From positions 765,654-829,653 of the forward strand of contig NZ_CP006745.1 of assembly GCF_000510265.1 (NCBI RefSeq): a stretch of DNA of 64,000 nt, read 5' to 3'. The stretch is from Candidatus Endolissoclinum faulkneri L5 (GTDB lineage Bacteria; Pseudomonadota; Alphaproteobacteria; Thalassobaculales; Thalassobaculaceae). The notes below the pieces were generated by a model that worked only from the letters and a program-made list of their open reading frames with translations, had not been told where the DNA came from and ran no database searches. Both the position numbers and the translations under genes were made by a program. This document shows, one piece after another, positions 4,208 to 56,991 of this stretch. Each line of letters begins with the position of its first letter. The stretch's first letter is position 1.

Positions 4208-5038
4208 TTATGATTTAATGTATTCGGTCGGCTTCGATGAAGAGTAATACCTAACAGTAGTGCGACGTAACAACCAAAATACACCAAGTAAATCGATAAT
4301 TCCTACTAAAGCACGCTTACTGTTGTTATATTTAGATCTTCCTACTCTACGAGGTCGATCGTCAACTAAAACATGCAGCGTCTCATAACCGTAGCACTTG
4401 GTTAGCGCCGGCATGTAGCGATGTAAGCTATCAAAGTAAGGAAAAGCTAAAAATAATGGCCGCAGGACTACTTTAAGTCCACAAGCTGCGTCAGGGCAGT
4501 CGTCACGCAGTAAAATTTGCCGCACAAAATTGCCAATACGTGATGCAATCAAACGACCTAATCCGGCAGTACGGTGCCGACGAACACCAGCTACAAGACC
4601 AACCTTACCAACTTTTGTCGCATCTATTTGAGCAACCATTGCTAGCACGTCAGTTGGATCATTTTCACCATCACCATCTATAGTTGCCATCCAAAGAGAA
4701 TTTGCTATCATTGCCCCAGTGCGCAACGCTGCGCTTTTATTTGACCGCTTAGCATGGCGAACTAATATAATGCGTGAATCATTAGCGGCTAGTTGCTTCA
4801 CAATTTTGTCAGTTCCATCACAACTGCCGTCATCAACAACTATAACTTGTACACGATAAATTGCTCCAACCTTATCAAGCACTTCCTGCAATAAATTTGC
4901 TATGGCGCCTGCTTCATCCCGCACGGGGATAATCACACTAATCGAAGGCGCATCAATTAACTGATTATTTACCAGCATATTTTCATCATATGCTGGTAAA
5001 TAATCCGGCAATAGAAGCTGTAATCTCAAACACTTCAC
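4208..5038 (-). CDS. GT2 family glycosyltransferase, polyprenyl-phosphate sugar synthase type
   Basis: A 276-residue GT-A enzyme of the dolichol-phosphate-mannose-synthase type. The nucleotide-sugar site is visible as ISVIIPVRDEAGAI (about 33-46), VVDDGSCDGT (about 67-76) and the metal-binding DGDGEND in a typical DxD position. Only one moderately hydrophobic stretch is present near the C-terminus, so it is probably a peripheral enzyme. It would make the polyprenyl-phosphate sugar used by the adjacent GT39 transferase (inference). The start is GTG at 5038, overlapping the upstream GT4 stop by 4 bp (GTGA). An alternative ATG at 4978 lies inside one arm of a perfect 18-bp inverted repeat (4963-5005). 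The residues before the catalytic core look like a variable extension. Confidence 0.82.
   Translation of the reverse strand: MKCLRLQLLLPDYLPAYDENMLVNNQLIDAPSISVIIPVRDEAGAIANLLQEVLDKVGAIYRVQVIVVDDGSCDGTDKIVKQLAANDSRIILVRHAKRSNKSAALRTGAMIANSLWMATIDGDGENDPTDVLAMVAQIDATKVGKVGLVAGVRRHRTAGLGRLIASRIGNFVRQILLRDDCPDAACGLKVVLRPLFLAFPYFDSLHRYMPALTKCYGYETLHVLVDDRPRRVGRSKYNNSKRALVGIIDLLGVFWLLRRTTVRYYSSSKPTEYIKS
4963..5005. repeat. Perfect 18-bp inverted repeat (hairpin) inside GT2 gene
   Basis: The arms GATTATTTACCAGCATAT (4963-4980) and its exact complement (4988-5005) flank a 7-nt loop. The structure lies in codons about 12-26 of the minus-strand GT2 gene, within a non-conserved N-terminal extension. 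Base-by-base comparison shows no mismatch; pairing fails at the next base outward. Confidence 0.95.
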
Positions 5039-6057
5039 CTCAATAGTTTTTGAAAGAGTGTTGTATAATTAGTGACACAAGCAAACTTGCTAAACTCCGC
5101 AGCATGTCGAGCGCTGCCAGCCTTACTTAATCTATTCGCTAGCTCGTTATCCTGTATCATCAGAAGCAAAGCATCTCGCAGTGGGTTTACCTCATCTTTG
5201 GTAACTATCAAACCATCGATCCCATTACATACAAATTCAACAGGTCCATCAGTATCTGTCGAGATCAGCGGTTTACCATAGGCCCATGCCTCCAGCATAA
5301 CTGTACCGAAGGGTTCGTAGCGTGAGGGTAAAGCTACTATATCACAACTTCGAAAGAAAGCGCCAGTATCACTTCGCCATCCGAAAAACGTTACTCTATC
5401 ACTTATACCTAGTTCTATGGATAATTTCTTTAGTAGTTTTTTTTCTGGACCACTACCAGCTATCCATAAATGAATTTGAGTTTGATCTGCTATAGCACGC
5501 ATCAGCACATCTAAACCTTTCACTCTATGGAGACGCGACGGAGTAAAAATCACTTTCGCCCCCTCGGGGACTCCCAGGGCAGCGCGATCAAGTGCTGCGG
5601 TTTTATCACATTCAGCAAAATTATAGATCACACTGCATCGATCATTGGGCCAACCGTGATCGATGACATAGCGACGAATGCCCTCTGTTATACAGATCAG
5701 ATGCTCGCAATTGAGAAAATGATCTAAGTTGTACAACCCGCCTAATCGAGCAACTTTAACATGCGTTCCTTCTGGCATAAAGGCGCTAGCACGACTCATG
5801 TAAGACAGCACAATATCAGGTTGAAACTTTGTTACCATGCGACAAATAGAATTTTTAGTATAACAATCCATAAAAGAGTAGAAAGGAGCTTCTGAAACCC
5901 ACACCCCATTCGCTTCTAAAGTAGCACGACGGTGGTAATTAGGGCGAATTACTGTGCTACAGGTTTCACCTGCGGCGGCAAGCGCACTAGTTAAGTTAAC
6001 AAAAAATGTCTCCGCTCCACCGTTAGCAGCACCGGCGATTATTGAAAGTATTCGCAT
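5035..6057 (-). CDS. GT4 family glycosyltransferase
   Basis: A 340-residue GT-B fold retaining glycosyltransferase, first gene of the minus-strand GT4-GT2-GT39 operon. The N-terminus has the glycine-rich acceptor loop (MRILSIIAGAANGGAETF). The C-terminal domain carries the donor-site run TPSRLHRVKGLDVL (about 192-205), the GSGPE motif and the EPFGTVMLEA E-x7-E motif (about 249-258) typical of GT4. It should add a sugar from a nucleotide donor in the cytoplasm to a glycan, probably lipopolysaccharide core or O-glycan given its neighbours. It starts at ATG 6057 and its TGA overlaps the next gene's GTG. Specificity cannot be told from sequence. Confidence 0.87.
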   Translation of the reverse strand: MRILSIIAGAANGGAETFFVNLTSALAAAGETCSTVIRPNYHRRATLEANGVWVSEAPFYSFMDCYTKNSICRMVTKFQPDIVLSYMSRASAFMPEGTHVKVARLGGLYNLDHFLNCEHLICITEGIRRYVIDHGWPNDRCSVIYNFAECDKTAALDRAALGVPEGAKVIFTPSRLHRVKGLDVLMRAIADQTQIHLWIAGSGPEKKLLKKLSIELGISDRVTFFGWRSDTGAFFRSCDIVALPSRYEPFGTVMLEAWAYGKPLISTDTDGPVEFVCNGIDGLIVTKDEVNPLRDALLLMIQDNELANRLSKAGSARHAAEFSKFACVTNYTTLFQKLLR

Positions 6058-14327: not shown

Positions 14328-16613
14328 TTGCGCATAAAACTAATCCTTTTTTGCCAGGCGGTAGCGCTTGCCTTTGCTGTCGGAATGATTCCGACAGCAA
14401 AGGCAAAATTCGCGGAGATGAATAGGAATATAATTAAAAAAGTTGTGGTTGAGGGGACAAAACGCATCGATCCAGCCACAGTTCGTTCCTACTTGCTAAT
14501 TCAGCCTGGTGATACATTTGATTCAGAGAGACTCGATAGATCGCTCAAAGCTCTATATAGCACCGGCCTGTTCTCAGATATTACGATGTATCGTGATACT
14601 ACTAATCTATTGATTAAGGTGGTAGAAAACTCTATCATTAATCGCATTTCCTTTGAGGGAAACAGACGAATCAACGATGAAGAATTAAAGCGCGAAATTA
14701 AGCTTCGCCCTCGCTTAGTATATTCTCGTAATCAGGTACAACAGGATGTGCAACGCATAATTAAGACCTATCAACGTTCAGGATATTACGCTGTGAATGT
14801 TGAACCAAAAGTCATACAACAAAACCAAAACCGTGTTGATTTGATATTTGAAATTAAGGATGGTGAACTTACTCGAGTACAAACTATCAATTTTTTAGGT
14901 AATCGGGCATTTAGCGATGCTAATTTACGCGGAATCATTAAAACTAAGGAATATGCATTTTACAGATTTTTCACTTCTGATGACAATTATGACGCGGATA
15001 GGTTGAGCTACGATAAAGCGCTACTGCGTCAATTTTACTTAGAAAACGGCTATGCAGATTTTCGTGTACTTTCGGCCGTAGCTGAGCTTGCACCAGACGG
15101 TAAGTCATTCGTTATAACTTTTACCGTAGAAGAGGGGTACTTCTACACTTTTGGATCAAGTGACTTTGATATATCGTTGCCACAAATTGATTCTAAAGCT
15201 TTGCGCCAATTTGTCCTCACTGAGGAAGGAGAAAAATACAATGCTAATTTAATAGACGATACAATCTACGCTATCAATGACTACCTTGGCACTTTAGGAT
15301 ATGCCTTCGTGGACTTAAGCTACACAGTAAACACTGATCTTAAAAAGCGAACAATTGATGTTACATATCAAATTGGTCCAGCACGTAAGGTTTTTATTGA
15401 AAGAATTAATATAAGAGGTAATGTGCGAACACTGGACCGAATAATTCGGCGAGAGATAGGCTTTGTAGAAGGTGATTCATTTAACATCTCCCAAATGCGA
15501 ATATCTGAACAACGCATTCGCAATTTAGGATTTTTTAAAAGCGTTAATGTAAAAAATACTCAGGGTAGTGGGCCAGATCGTACCGTAGTTAATGTTGATG
15601 TCGAGGAGAGATCTACTGGTGAAATTTCTTTCGGTATTGGCTTTTCTACAACAGAATCAATAATCGGTGATATTGGTATTCATGAGAGAAATTTACTTGG
15701 ACGAGGACAAGATTTACTCTTTAACATAACGACATCAAATGTTGCCACCGAATTCGATATAGCCTTTACCGAACCTTATTTATTTAATCGTGATCTAGCT
15801 GCTGGTTTTAACCTCTTTCGTACTGAAAGAGAAAGAAAAGAAAGTTCTTATAATGAGCTCCGTTTTGGCGGAATGCTGCGCTCCTACTACACTCTACAGC
15901 CAAATCTAACGCAACAAATCAAATATCGACTTGAGCAAATAGAGATTAAAGAAGTGGACGAAAACACTGCTCAATACATCAAAGCTCAGGAAGGAACAAG
16001 GATAGTTTCTCAGTTTGGCCAAACTTTAACTTATGATAAACGTGATAACCGCCTAGATCCACGCGATGGATACATCACTCAGCTAACGAATGAAGTAGCA
16101 GGTGCTGGGGGGGACGAAAAATTTTTTCGTACTCGTATAAAGGCTGGTTACTATTATCCACTAGATGATGTTTGGGGATTGTCATTTCTAATTAATAGTG
16201 GATTTATTGTCGGTCTTGGTGAAGAAGTTTCCATCTTAGAACGATTTTTTATTGGTGCTAGTTCTTTCCGAGGCTTTCAGCGTGGTGGTGTTGGTCCACA
16301 CGATAGTGTTAGCAAAGACGCCTTAGGTGCCAACAATTATTATGTAGGATCAGTTGAGCTTGCATTTCCAAATGGCATGTCAAAAGACCTTGGTATGCGT
16401 ACATTTATTTTTACCGATTTTGGTAGCGTATGGGGCATTGACGAAAAAGATAACAAAATAGCGGATGATCCCTCAATGCGTGCAACTGTAGGATTGGGAC
16501 TATCTTTTGCCACTGCATTTGGTACAATTCGATTAGATGTAGCTGAAGTATTAGCAAAAGAAGATTTTGACGTTCCTGAAGTATTCCGCTTAAGCTTTGG
16601 TACACAGTTTTGA
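14328..16613 (+). CDS. bamA: Outer membrane protein assembly factor BamA
   Basis: BamA is the central Omp85 barrel that inserts beta-barrel proteins into the outer membrane. The 761-residue protein has a signal peptide (cleavage near 27), five POTRA domains (about 35-430) and a C-terminal barrel ending in SFGTQF with the expected terminal phenylalanine. The barrel-lumen motif appears as FRGFQRGGVGP, where VRGF is usual. The start is TTG at 14328, since no ATG fits the signal peptide. A perfect 18-bp inverted repeat encodes most of the signal-peptide core, and a G7 run lies at 16107-16113. skp, the usual next gene, is absent. BamE is encoded at 45773. Confidence 0.97.
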   Translation: MRIKLILFCQAVALAFAVGMIPTAKAKFAEMNRNIIKKVVVEGTKRIDPATVRSYLLIQPGDTFDSERLDRSLKALYSTGLFSDITMYRDTTNLLIKVVENSIINRISFEGNRRINDEELKREIKLRPRLVYSRNQVQQDVQRIIKTYQRSGYYAVNVEPKVIQQNQNRVDLIFEIKDGELTRVQTINFLGNRAFSDANLRGIIKTKEYAFYRFFTSDDNYDADRLSYDKALLRQFYLENGYADFRVLSAVAELAPDGKSFVITFTVEEGYFYTFGSSDFDISLPQIDSKALRQFVLTEEGEKYNANLIDDTIYAINDYLGTLGYAFVDLSYTVNTDLKKRTIDVTYQIGPARKVFIERINIRGNVRTLDRIIRREIGFVEGDSFNISQMRISEQRIRNLGFFKSVNVKNTQGSGPDRTVVNVDVEERSTGEISFGIGFSTTESIIGDIGIHERNLLGRGQDLLFNITTSNVATEFDIAFTEPYLFNRDLAAGFNLFRTERERKESSYNELRFGGMLRSYYTLQPNLTQQIKYRLEQIEIKEVDENTAQYIKAQEGTRIVSQFGQTLTYDKRDNRLDPRDGYITQLTNEVAGAGGDEKFFRTRIKAGYYYPLDDVWGLSFLINSGFIVGLGEEVSILERFFIGASSFRGFQRGGVGPHDSVSKDALGANNYYVGSVELAFPNGMSKDLGMRTFIFTDFGSVWGIDEKDNKIADDPSMRATVGLGLSFATAFGTIRLDVAEVLAKEDFDVPEVFRLSFGTQF
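14368..14406. repeat. Perfect 18-bp inverted repeat (3-nt loop) inside bamA signal sequence
   Basis: TTGCCTTTGCTGTCGGAA (14368-14385) and its exact complement (14389-14406) are separated by TGA. The structure covers codons 14-27, so one arm encodes the hydrophobic core and the other the cleavage region of the signal peptide. In mRNA it would be a very stable hairpin about 40 nt downstream of the start codon. Confidence 0.96.
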
Positions 16614-17288
16614 ATATTCTTTGTCCTATAAACTTTTCTTTGAAAAAACCTCTTAAATGGATAATTAGCCCTTAAAGGAGATGATAAAAATTAGATTAAT
16701 AAAAAGTGTATGATGCGCTTATTGTAAAAGCGATGATGAATTGCGAGTTACAGGCTAGTGATGTAATTAGCCTTAGAGCATAATAAATCAATTACGGAAA
16801 TTGCTCTTCGGCCAAGCATTTCAAAATATGAATACTACTGAATAAATACATAACAACATTAACTACTATAGCTAAATTTATTAGCTCCGGATTACTCAAA
16901 GGCTGCAAAATATTGCCTGTGAACGAAAAAGATTTACAACAATAGTCCTTAATCTAGCTTGGAGCTGTTTATTACACACGGTTATTATAACTTTAATAGT
17001 AAAATTATGAAGTTACAAAAATAATGCATAAGCAAAGAAAATCCTTAGTCAAACTTTCATCAGAGTAAAAAAGTTAAATAACATATTAATTTCGGTAACT
17101 AATGAAATTAATATGTTATCGATAATGAAATTAATTCCTGTTAAAGAATCCATTATTTTCTTCCAAAGAAATCAATGGATTGGATCGGGAAATGCTTTAA
17201 GTAGCTTAAATAAATGAATGGTATCAATTAAGATTGAATTGCCAATACTCATATTAACCCACTATATATGTACGGGGGGTGATAAAAC
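16614..17288. other. Spacer where skp (ompH) is expected
   Basis: Most alphaproteobacteria have the periplasmic chaperone gene skp/ompH between bamA and lpxD. Here 675 bp of A+T-rich DNA has no frame with a signal peptide or helical Skp-like pattern. It contains a perfect 16-bp inverted repeat (17078-17093 with 17104-17119, loop 10). A G6 run just before lpxD acts as or overlaps its ribosome-binding site. Confidence 0.6.
17078..17119. repeat. Perfect 16-bp inverted repeat, 10-nt loop
   Basis: ATAACATATTAATTTC (17078-17093) pairs fully with 17104-17119. It is in the bamA-lpxD spacer. No T-run follows on the plus strand, so it is not a clear terminator. Confidence 0.9.
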
Positions 17289-35650: not shown

Positions 35651-35695
35651 AATTAAAACAGCAAAATTCATTATCTGAGTTTTGCTGTTTTAATT
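35651..35695. repeat. Perfect 16-bp inverted repeat, 13-nt loop
   Basis: AATTAAAACAGCAAAA (35651-35666) pairs fully with 35680-35695. It lies about 110 bp upstream of rpiB. No T-run follows on the plus strand. Confidence 0.9.
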
Positions 35696-37649: not shown

Positions 37650-38056
37650 CATGTTTCATGCAAAGAATGCAGTATTGTCATTAATAGAGAACAAAAGTAT
37701 TAAAGATCGCCAATCTTGTTTAAGGTTCGGCACTGAATCAAGCAGTTTTTAAGCTGAATAAAAATTTGTGAAATAACTGCTGAATAAGAAAAAGCACGCT
37801 ATAGATTAATATAGAAACAAGTAAATCAAATTGATAGGAATTGCTCTGCAAGAGCCCCTTAGCAGATTTAGTAAGTATTGAATGCCTTTAAGAATAATTG
37901 ACTAATTTTGTCAATTATTCTTAACTTATTTAAAGTTGTGACTATACAGATTGTACAATACTCCACGATTTACAGAGCTTTAGATACTTCATTGAAAAAT
38001 CAATATCAAAAACGCATTAATCAGCTATTGACTGCCAATCTAATCCGTAGGTTGCT
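37650..38056. other. Spacer at the expected nrdR position
   Basis: In relatives nrdR lies between glyA and ribD. These 407 bp show no frame with the NrdR zinc ribbon (CPFC...C..C) or ATP-cone. A perfect 15-bp inverted repeat (37888-37902 with 37910-37924, loop 7) is present and might end the glyA transcript, although the following sequence is not a clear T-tract. Confidence 0.6.
37888..37924. repeat. Perfect 15-bp inverted repeat, 7-nt loop
   Basis: TTAAGAATAATTGAC (37888-37902) pairs with 37910-37924. It is A+T-rich and lies between glyA and ribD; a terminator function is possible but not clear. Confidence 0.88.
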
Positions 38057-56934: not shown

Positions 56935-56991
56935 CTGCCAACAAATGTATTGTTTTATTTTGTCTTGAAACAATACATTTGTTTCTTGCAG
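56935..56991. repeat. Large perfect inverted repeat upstream of rfb cluster
   Basis: AACAAATGTATTGTTT (56940-56955) pairs exactly with 56968-56983 around a 12-nt loop, and CTGC (56935-56938) pairs with GCAG (56988-56991) after a small internal loop. It lies about 520 bp before rfbB. Confidence 0.9.

Follow-up and report, generated by a model that had tools for sequence, protein, structure and literature searches.

The 5' end of a glycosyltransferase gene in Candidatus Endolissoclinum faulkneri L5 carries a long inverted repeat, and the question raised by this locus is whether such a structure acts as a regulator, represents a mobile element, or is a by-product of mutation. The window (the whole stretch of DNA that was analysed, 64,000 nucleotides of contig NZ_CP006745.1) had been described in a sequence-only reading as holding an 18-bp perfect hairpin with a 7-nt loop in this gene, and that description is borne out: the arm GATTATTTACCAGCATAT (4963–4980) faces its perfect reverse complement (4988–5005) across the 7-nt spacer TTTCATC (4981–4987), and an imperfect outer extension (4950–5018) lengthens the arms to 31 nt at 84% complementarity. 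The hairpin is real and non-random. It is probably a mutational product, one of many, and neither an element nor a regulator.

The hairpin and the start of the GT2 gene

Perfect arms of at least 18 bp with spacers of 0–20 nt are expected ~8e-5 times in 64 kb at the composition of the window, and first-order Markov simulations of the window (n = 6) yield zero perfect arms of at least 12 bp. The hairpin sequence is single-copy in the closed L5 genome of 1,518,636 bp. The gene concerned is a GT2 glycosyltransferase (Glycos_transf_2; 4208–4978, minus strand), which scores 89 bits against the PF00535 profile (curated cut-off 23.3), and the nearest relatives of its protein come from Thalassobaculum and from another reduced genome, of 1,481,191 bp (G005), which is taken to be that of Ca. 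E. faulkneri strain L2. Upstream lies a GT4-type glycosyltransferase gene (Glycos_transf_1; 5035–6057, minus strand), whose TGA overlaps a GTG at 5038 to read GTGA; the GT2 open frame reaches this GTG, and the product would comprise 276 aa from there or 256 aa from the ATG at 4978.

The position of the start codon decides how the hairpin lies with respect to the gene. Counting from the start to a conserved LSV/ISV motif, there are 14 codons in T. litoreum and 12 from ATG 4978; the DNA upstream of the GT2 start is intergenic in four Thalassobaculum-like genomes; and in the L2 ortholog the frame from the GTG is closed by a TAG, while a further candidate, TTG 5029 (immediately preceded by GAGGTGA in L5), reads TTA. 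Because of this motif spacing, the intergenic upstream DNA, and the TAG in L2, ATG 4978 (minus strand, 4978–4976) is probably the true GT2 start. The hairpin would therefore straddle the start, with the arm that is upstream in gene sense (4988–5005) in the GT4–GT2 spacer and the downstream arm (4963–4980) over the start codon. As a result, the earlier placement of the hairpin inside the GT2 coding region holds for only half of it, and the ATG within one arm, formerly proposed as a hidden internal start, is present but probably is the authentic one. In the L2 ortholog, CTA TAA follows the aligned ATG, and no ATG, GTG, or TTG occurs before the conserved domain; a rare start codon, a frameshift, or a sequence error are options for this oddity.

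Comparison with strain L2 further reveals how the perfect arms may have arisen. The L2 site is an imperfect palindrome in which both arms are recognisable, with identities of 12/18 and 14/18 to the L5 arms and a mutual pairing of 9/18, as opposed to 18/18 in L5 and to 0.26 expected from slid pairing. Since the L2 arms still match L5 and pair with each other at half of their positions, the ancestor very likely already carried both arms as a quasipalindrome, from which L5 would have perfected its own. Where the L2 arms disagree, L5 follows one arm five times, the other three times, and neither once; moreover, a perfect ancestor would place all 10 differences on the L2 branch (p ~0.001 under equal rates), and an ancestral perfect hairpin maintained by selection is thus disfavoured by the L2 sequence. 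The direction of change at this site cannot be polarised, because the Thalassobaculum sequence there is unrelated.

A perfect repeat where the close relative is imperfect is found not only at GT2 but also at bamA, whose signal-peptide region holds a companion hairpin (14368–14406). The two had been presented as identical in architecture, which does not hold, as the bamA hairpin has 19-bp arms and a 1-nt spacer. In its L2 counterpart, a 6-nt bulge interrupts the repeat and the core carries matched changes, whereas L5 pairs perfectly at 19/19; a bulge in one strain that is absent from the other is the textbook form of quasipalindrome correction. The interior of L2 bamA contains a perfect 15-bp repeat (G005:C1:764131) that is absent in L5, and the residues K, K, and Q within it differ from those of L5 and of the four Thalassobaculum-like genomes; comparison with these outgroups points to three derived changes within the repeat. 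A 483-aa gene whose product ends in FWSK has a palindrome over its stop codon (G000:C1:1259282 in L5; G005:C1:1232262 in L2). This palindrome is perfect in L5 as well as in L2, and two of its pairs have changed in both arms; repeated homogenisation or a terminator are options. In addition, a 14-bp palindrome of L5 (G000:C1:519183) lies in a 3553-aa open reading frame, and the changes relative to L2 are clustered in its arms.

A class of perfect inverted repeats in both strains

Perfect inverted repeats, defined by arms of at least 14 bp and spacers of 0–20 nt, were sought in four 100-kb blocks per strain, which cover ~26% of L5 and ~27% of L2. The 800 kb contain 92 such repeats with arms up to 31 bp (17, 9, 11, and 11 per block in L5; 5, 13, 10, and 16 in L2), whereas local shuffles of the eight blocks, five per block, produce 5 altogether. 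In 100-kb samples from eight other alphaproteobacteria, the count lies between 0 and 2 (G003, G055, and G043, 1 each; G052, G044, and G058, 0 each; G040 and G047, 2 each), a comparison that is limited by the greater coding density of these controls (open reading frame cover 0.83–0.98, versus 0.46–0.66 in L5 and L2); two of them, G052 and G043, exceed both strains in AT content. The earlier suspicion of a repeated process rather than chance is accordingly upheld by the contrast between the two strains and the eight genomes. Within the window, intergenic members of the same class as the GT2 repeat are located at 17078–17119, 35651–35695, and 56940–56983 (16-bp arms) and at 37888–37924 (15-bp arms). 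After removal of simple-sequence and overlapping repeats, 91 inverted repeats stand against a single mirror repeat, and the 91 have no sequence likeness to each other except for two orthologous pairs. Perfect close direct repeats number 69 in L5 and 6 in L2 per 400 kb, although the inverted excess occurs in both strains; the L5 direct repeats listed are gap-free tandem duplications of 18–45 bp. In the 628-kb alphaproteobacterial genome G052, positions 100–200 kb hold 21 close direct repeats and zero inverted ones.

The location of the repeats speaks against the proposed link to gene starts. Noncoding DNA harbours 79 of the 92 repeats, although ~60% of the sample is conserved open reading frame (binomial 2e-19), and dozens of similar palindromes are remote from genes. 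With overlapping repeats removed, and with any repeat whose nearest gene boundary is a neighbour's stop assigned to the stop zone, the density per kb is 0.256 in intergenic DNA, ~0.17 within 60 nt of stops, ~0.06 within 60 nt of starts, and 0.014 in gene interiors. By coordinates, the GT2 repeat itself falls in the stop zone, the GT4 stop being ~3 nt nearer; when it and the other start-near coding repeats are recounted as start-zone members, the density there still stays below the intergenic value. Repeats of this length class are thus not enriched near start codons in the sampled blocks, and a process acting specifically at gene starts is ruled out. The density pattern points instead to a blind mutational process filtered by selection. 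Among the 13 coding repeats, 8 lie within ~70 nt of a gene end, and purifying selection appears to have spared the repeats at such ends.

The age structure of the repeats is consistent with birth at perfection followed by decay. Arms of 18 bp with 0, 1, 2, 3, and 4 mismatches are observed 40, 28, 27, 53, and 316 times, in comparison with 0, 1, 1, 31, and 210 times in one shuffle per block, so that the excess is approximately level over 0–3 mismatches, as expected for repeats that are born perfect and then erode. Between the strains, 60 of the 92 repeats are alignable, 23 of them well, and the L5/L2 comparison excludes the 32 that are unalignable. The repeats are mostly specific to one strain: among the 51 rows in which 10 or more columns are paired, 80% or more of the pairs persist in the sister for 5, two of which represent a single locus viewed from either strain. 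Pairing in the sister extends to 213 of 385 positions (55%) across the 23 best-aligned rows, versus 32% for slid pairing, and some palindromes therefore grew from older imperfect ones. At three loci (G005 575744, G000 263281, and G000 293698), one arm was apparently kept and the other inserted or overwritten. Since intergenic L5/L2 alignments are poor, de novo creation and correction are indistinguishable in most cases.

Template switching as the probable origin, and the rival explanations

The best explanation, and one that is held with good confidence, is an origin by template switching (quasipalindrome correction) in a lineage without detectable mutS, recA, and xseA. At the quasipalindrome between GT4 and GT2, the nascent strand would briefly have switched its template during replication, and one arm would have been copied from the other, which would render both perfect. 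Ca. E. faulkneri would produce such palindromes often, perfect at birth; they would subsequently erode by point mutation in degrading intergenic DNA, and selection would clear them from most coding positions, with survival at gene ends, where the sequence is free to vary. Copying of one arm from the other explains at once the perfection of the arms, the lack of a sequence family, the strain-specificity, and the matched changes. Template switching as the molecular act, like any causal part of the gene losses, is an inference. Spacers of 0–1 nt, which occur in 24 of the 92 repeats, do not suit a simple fold-back, for which a loop is needed, and a switch between strands fits better. In E. coli, ExoVII limits quasipalindrome events. 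Mutations at such sites are described in PMC6357072 as universally perfecting the palindrome, with one arm templating the other; RecA is not needed according to the same paper, and loss of recB increases the rate.

The gene losses were examined in L5, L2, and four free-living Thalassobaculum-like genomes. In the latter, mutS, recA, and xseA are all present; none of the three was detected in L5 or L2, apart from a short mutS-like remnant in L2 (G005:C1:1004828–1004968) with four stops, perhaps a decayed mutS. The genome paper (Kwan and Schmidt 2013, PMC3851785) gives 1.51 Mb for L5 and 1.48 Mb for L2 with 55.6–57.2% coding DNA, and it reports the loss of recA and mutSLH in this tunicate symbiont and no evidence of mobile elements. 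All six genomes carry both recJ and addA; AddA may substitute for RecBCD, and its presence counts against the explanation by template switching. An SbcC profile found no good match in the genomes searched, the free-living Thalassobaculum genomes included. Two control genomes mildly argue against the loss of xseA or mutS alone sufficing: G043, in which xseA was not found and mutS is present, has 1 repeat per 100 kb, and G058, which is 71% complete and in which mutS was not found, has 0, each with little noncoding DNA. Neither shows an excess, and a single-gene cause is accordingly disfavoured.

A functional RNA hairpin that hides the start codon at ATG 4978, and that is opened by ribosomes terminating at GT4 (translational coupling) or by read-through from GTG 5038 or TTG 5029, would account for several features of the locus. 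The 101-nt RNA of the region has a predicted folding energy of -33.4 kcal/mol (z -5.3), its pairing includes the start codon, the GTGA overlap and the GAGGTGA before TTG 5029 would suit coupled translation, and the 9 of 18 pairs retained in L2 exceed expectation. The perfect pairing is nonetheless not conserved in L2, where the GTG frame is closed and the TTG replaced; no such stem is seen by eye in the four Thalassobaculum upstream regions; dozens of like palindromes lie far from genes; and no Rfam family matches at gathering score, which rules out a known RNA family. The half-retained stem and the missing Rfam match do not agree with a conserved cis-regulatory RNA, and this explanation is considered improbable; a regulatory role of the GT2 copy is conceivable but lacks support. 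The long stem at a gene junction would likewise suit an intrinsic terminator that separates GT4 from GT2, but the stem lacks a U-tract, straddles the probable start of the next gene, and has many sister palindromes away from gene ends. A terminator scan of 4700–5300 calls no site at the hairpin; together with the missing U-tract, this result rules out a terminator as a candidate and makes it very improbable.

Dispersal as a palindromic mobile element, for example a Rickettsia palindromic element or a MITE, would agree with palindromes that lie partly in coding sequence in an alphaproteobacterial symbiont. The GT2 repeat is single-copy, however, and the 91 repeats are unrelated save for the two orthologous pairs; with no dispersed copies that share sequence, a mobile family is ruled out and this origin is extremely improbable. 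Whole-genome amplification is known to yield inverted artefacts, and an artefact of assembly, amplification, or sequencing could in principle imitate the repeats. Such an origin, which the sequence-only reading had named as a possible refutation, is nevertheless highly unlikely: the excess occurs in both separately assembled strains, one palindrome is identical in the two, and another has matched changes on both arms. The sequencing described in PMC3851785 is direct Illumina sequencing with 101-bp reads, which span the 43 bp of the hairpin, and validation by mapping, in which 96 variant sites were called in the L5 assembly; the description names no amplification step.

Significance and comparison with known systems

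A search of the literature on template switching and inverted repeats in symbiont or bacterial genomes found nothing on this organism, and the main text of the genome paper (PMC3851785) does not mention inverted repeats, hairpins, or any word beginning with palindrom-. As far as the literature was searched, the novelty lies in the scale of a known mutational mechanism in a symbiont, template switching at inverted repeats having previously been known from reporters and scattered cases. A broader proposal, offered tentatively and with a chance somewhat short of even, is that replication in this lineage is permanently defective and keeps generating short perfect palindromes chromosome-wide at a rate similar to that of their decay by point mutation; intergenic DNA would then record template switching, and occasional single multi-base events would rewrite start codons, signal peptides, stop regions, and conserved residues, as in GT2, bamA, and the FWSK gene. 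If true, template switching would count as a genuine driver of how proteins evolve in shrinking genomes. Two diverged, closed, and syntenic genomes with dozens of fresh palindromes each offer a natural place to measure the switch rate, the spacer rules, and the effects on proteins, and a pair without detected mutS, recA, and xseA lets one ask which lost repair gene unleashes template switching. The locus also serves as a warning that a start-codon hairpin in a symbiont genome, however strong and thermodynamically striking, may have no regulatory function.

Rickettsia palindromic elements resemble the repeats described here in that they are able to sit within genes of alphaproteobacterial symbionts, but they form sequence families, and none is found among the symbiont repeats. 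The closest mechanistic parallel is quasipalindrome template-switch mutation in the E. coli thyA and lacZ reporters (PMC6357072, PMC7202029), in which, as these papers describe, imperfect inverted repeats including 18-bp ones are perfected by arm templating with no need for RecA and in which bulges are removed, as at bamA here; those are reporters or single hotspots, whereas the density reached here in two natural genomes is ~11 perfect repeats per 100 kb at an arm length of 14 bp or more. Similarly, the template switches described in yeast coding genes (PMC8604942) involve arm homogenisation and several neighbouring amino-acid changes, comparable to those in L2 bamA, but they concern 39 genes, with examples of 11-bp arms, as compared with arms up to 31 bp and a mostly intergenic location in the symbiont. 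In the mitochondrial coding palindromes of Nematomorpha, as described in PMC6649704, perfect repeats are likewise scattered through a fast-evolving reduced genome, are gained and lost between species, and have template switching as their proposed origin; they reach 284 bp, lie in coding sequence, and come with no imperfect excess, whereas the symbiont repeats are short, mostly intergenic, and about as common in imperfect as in perfect form.
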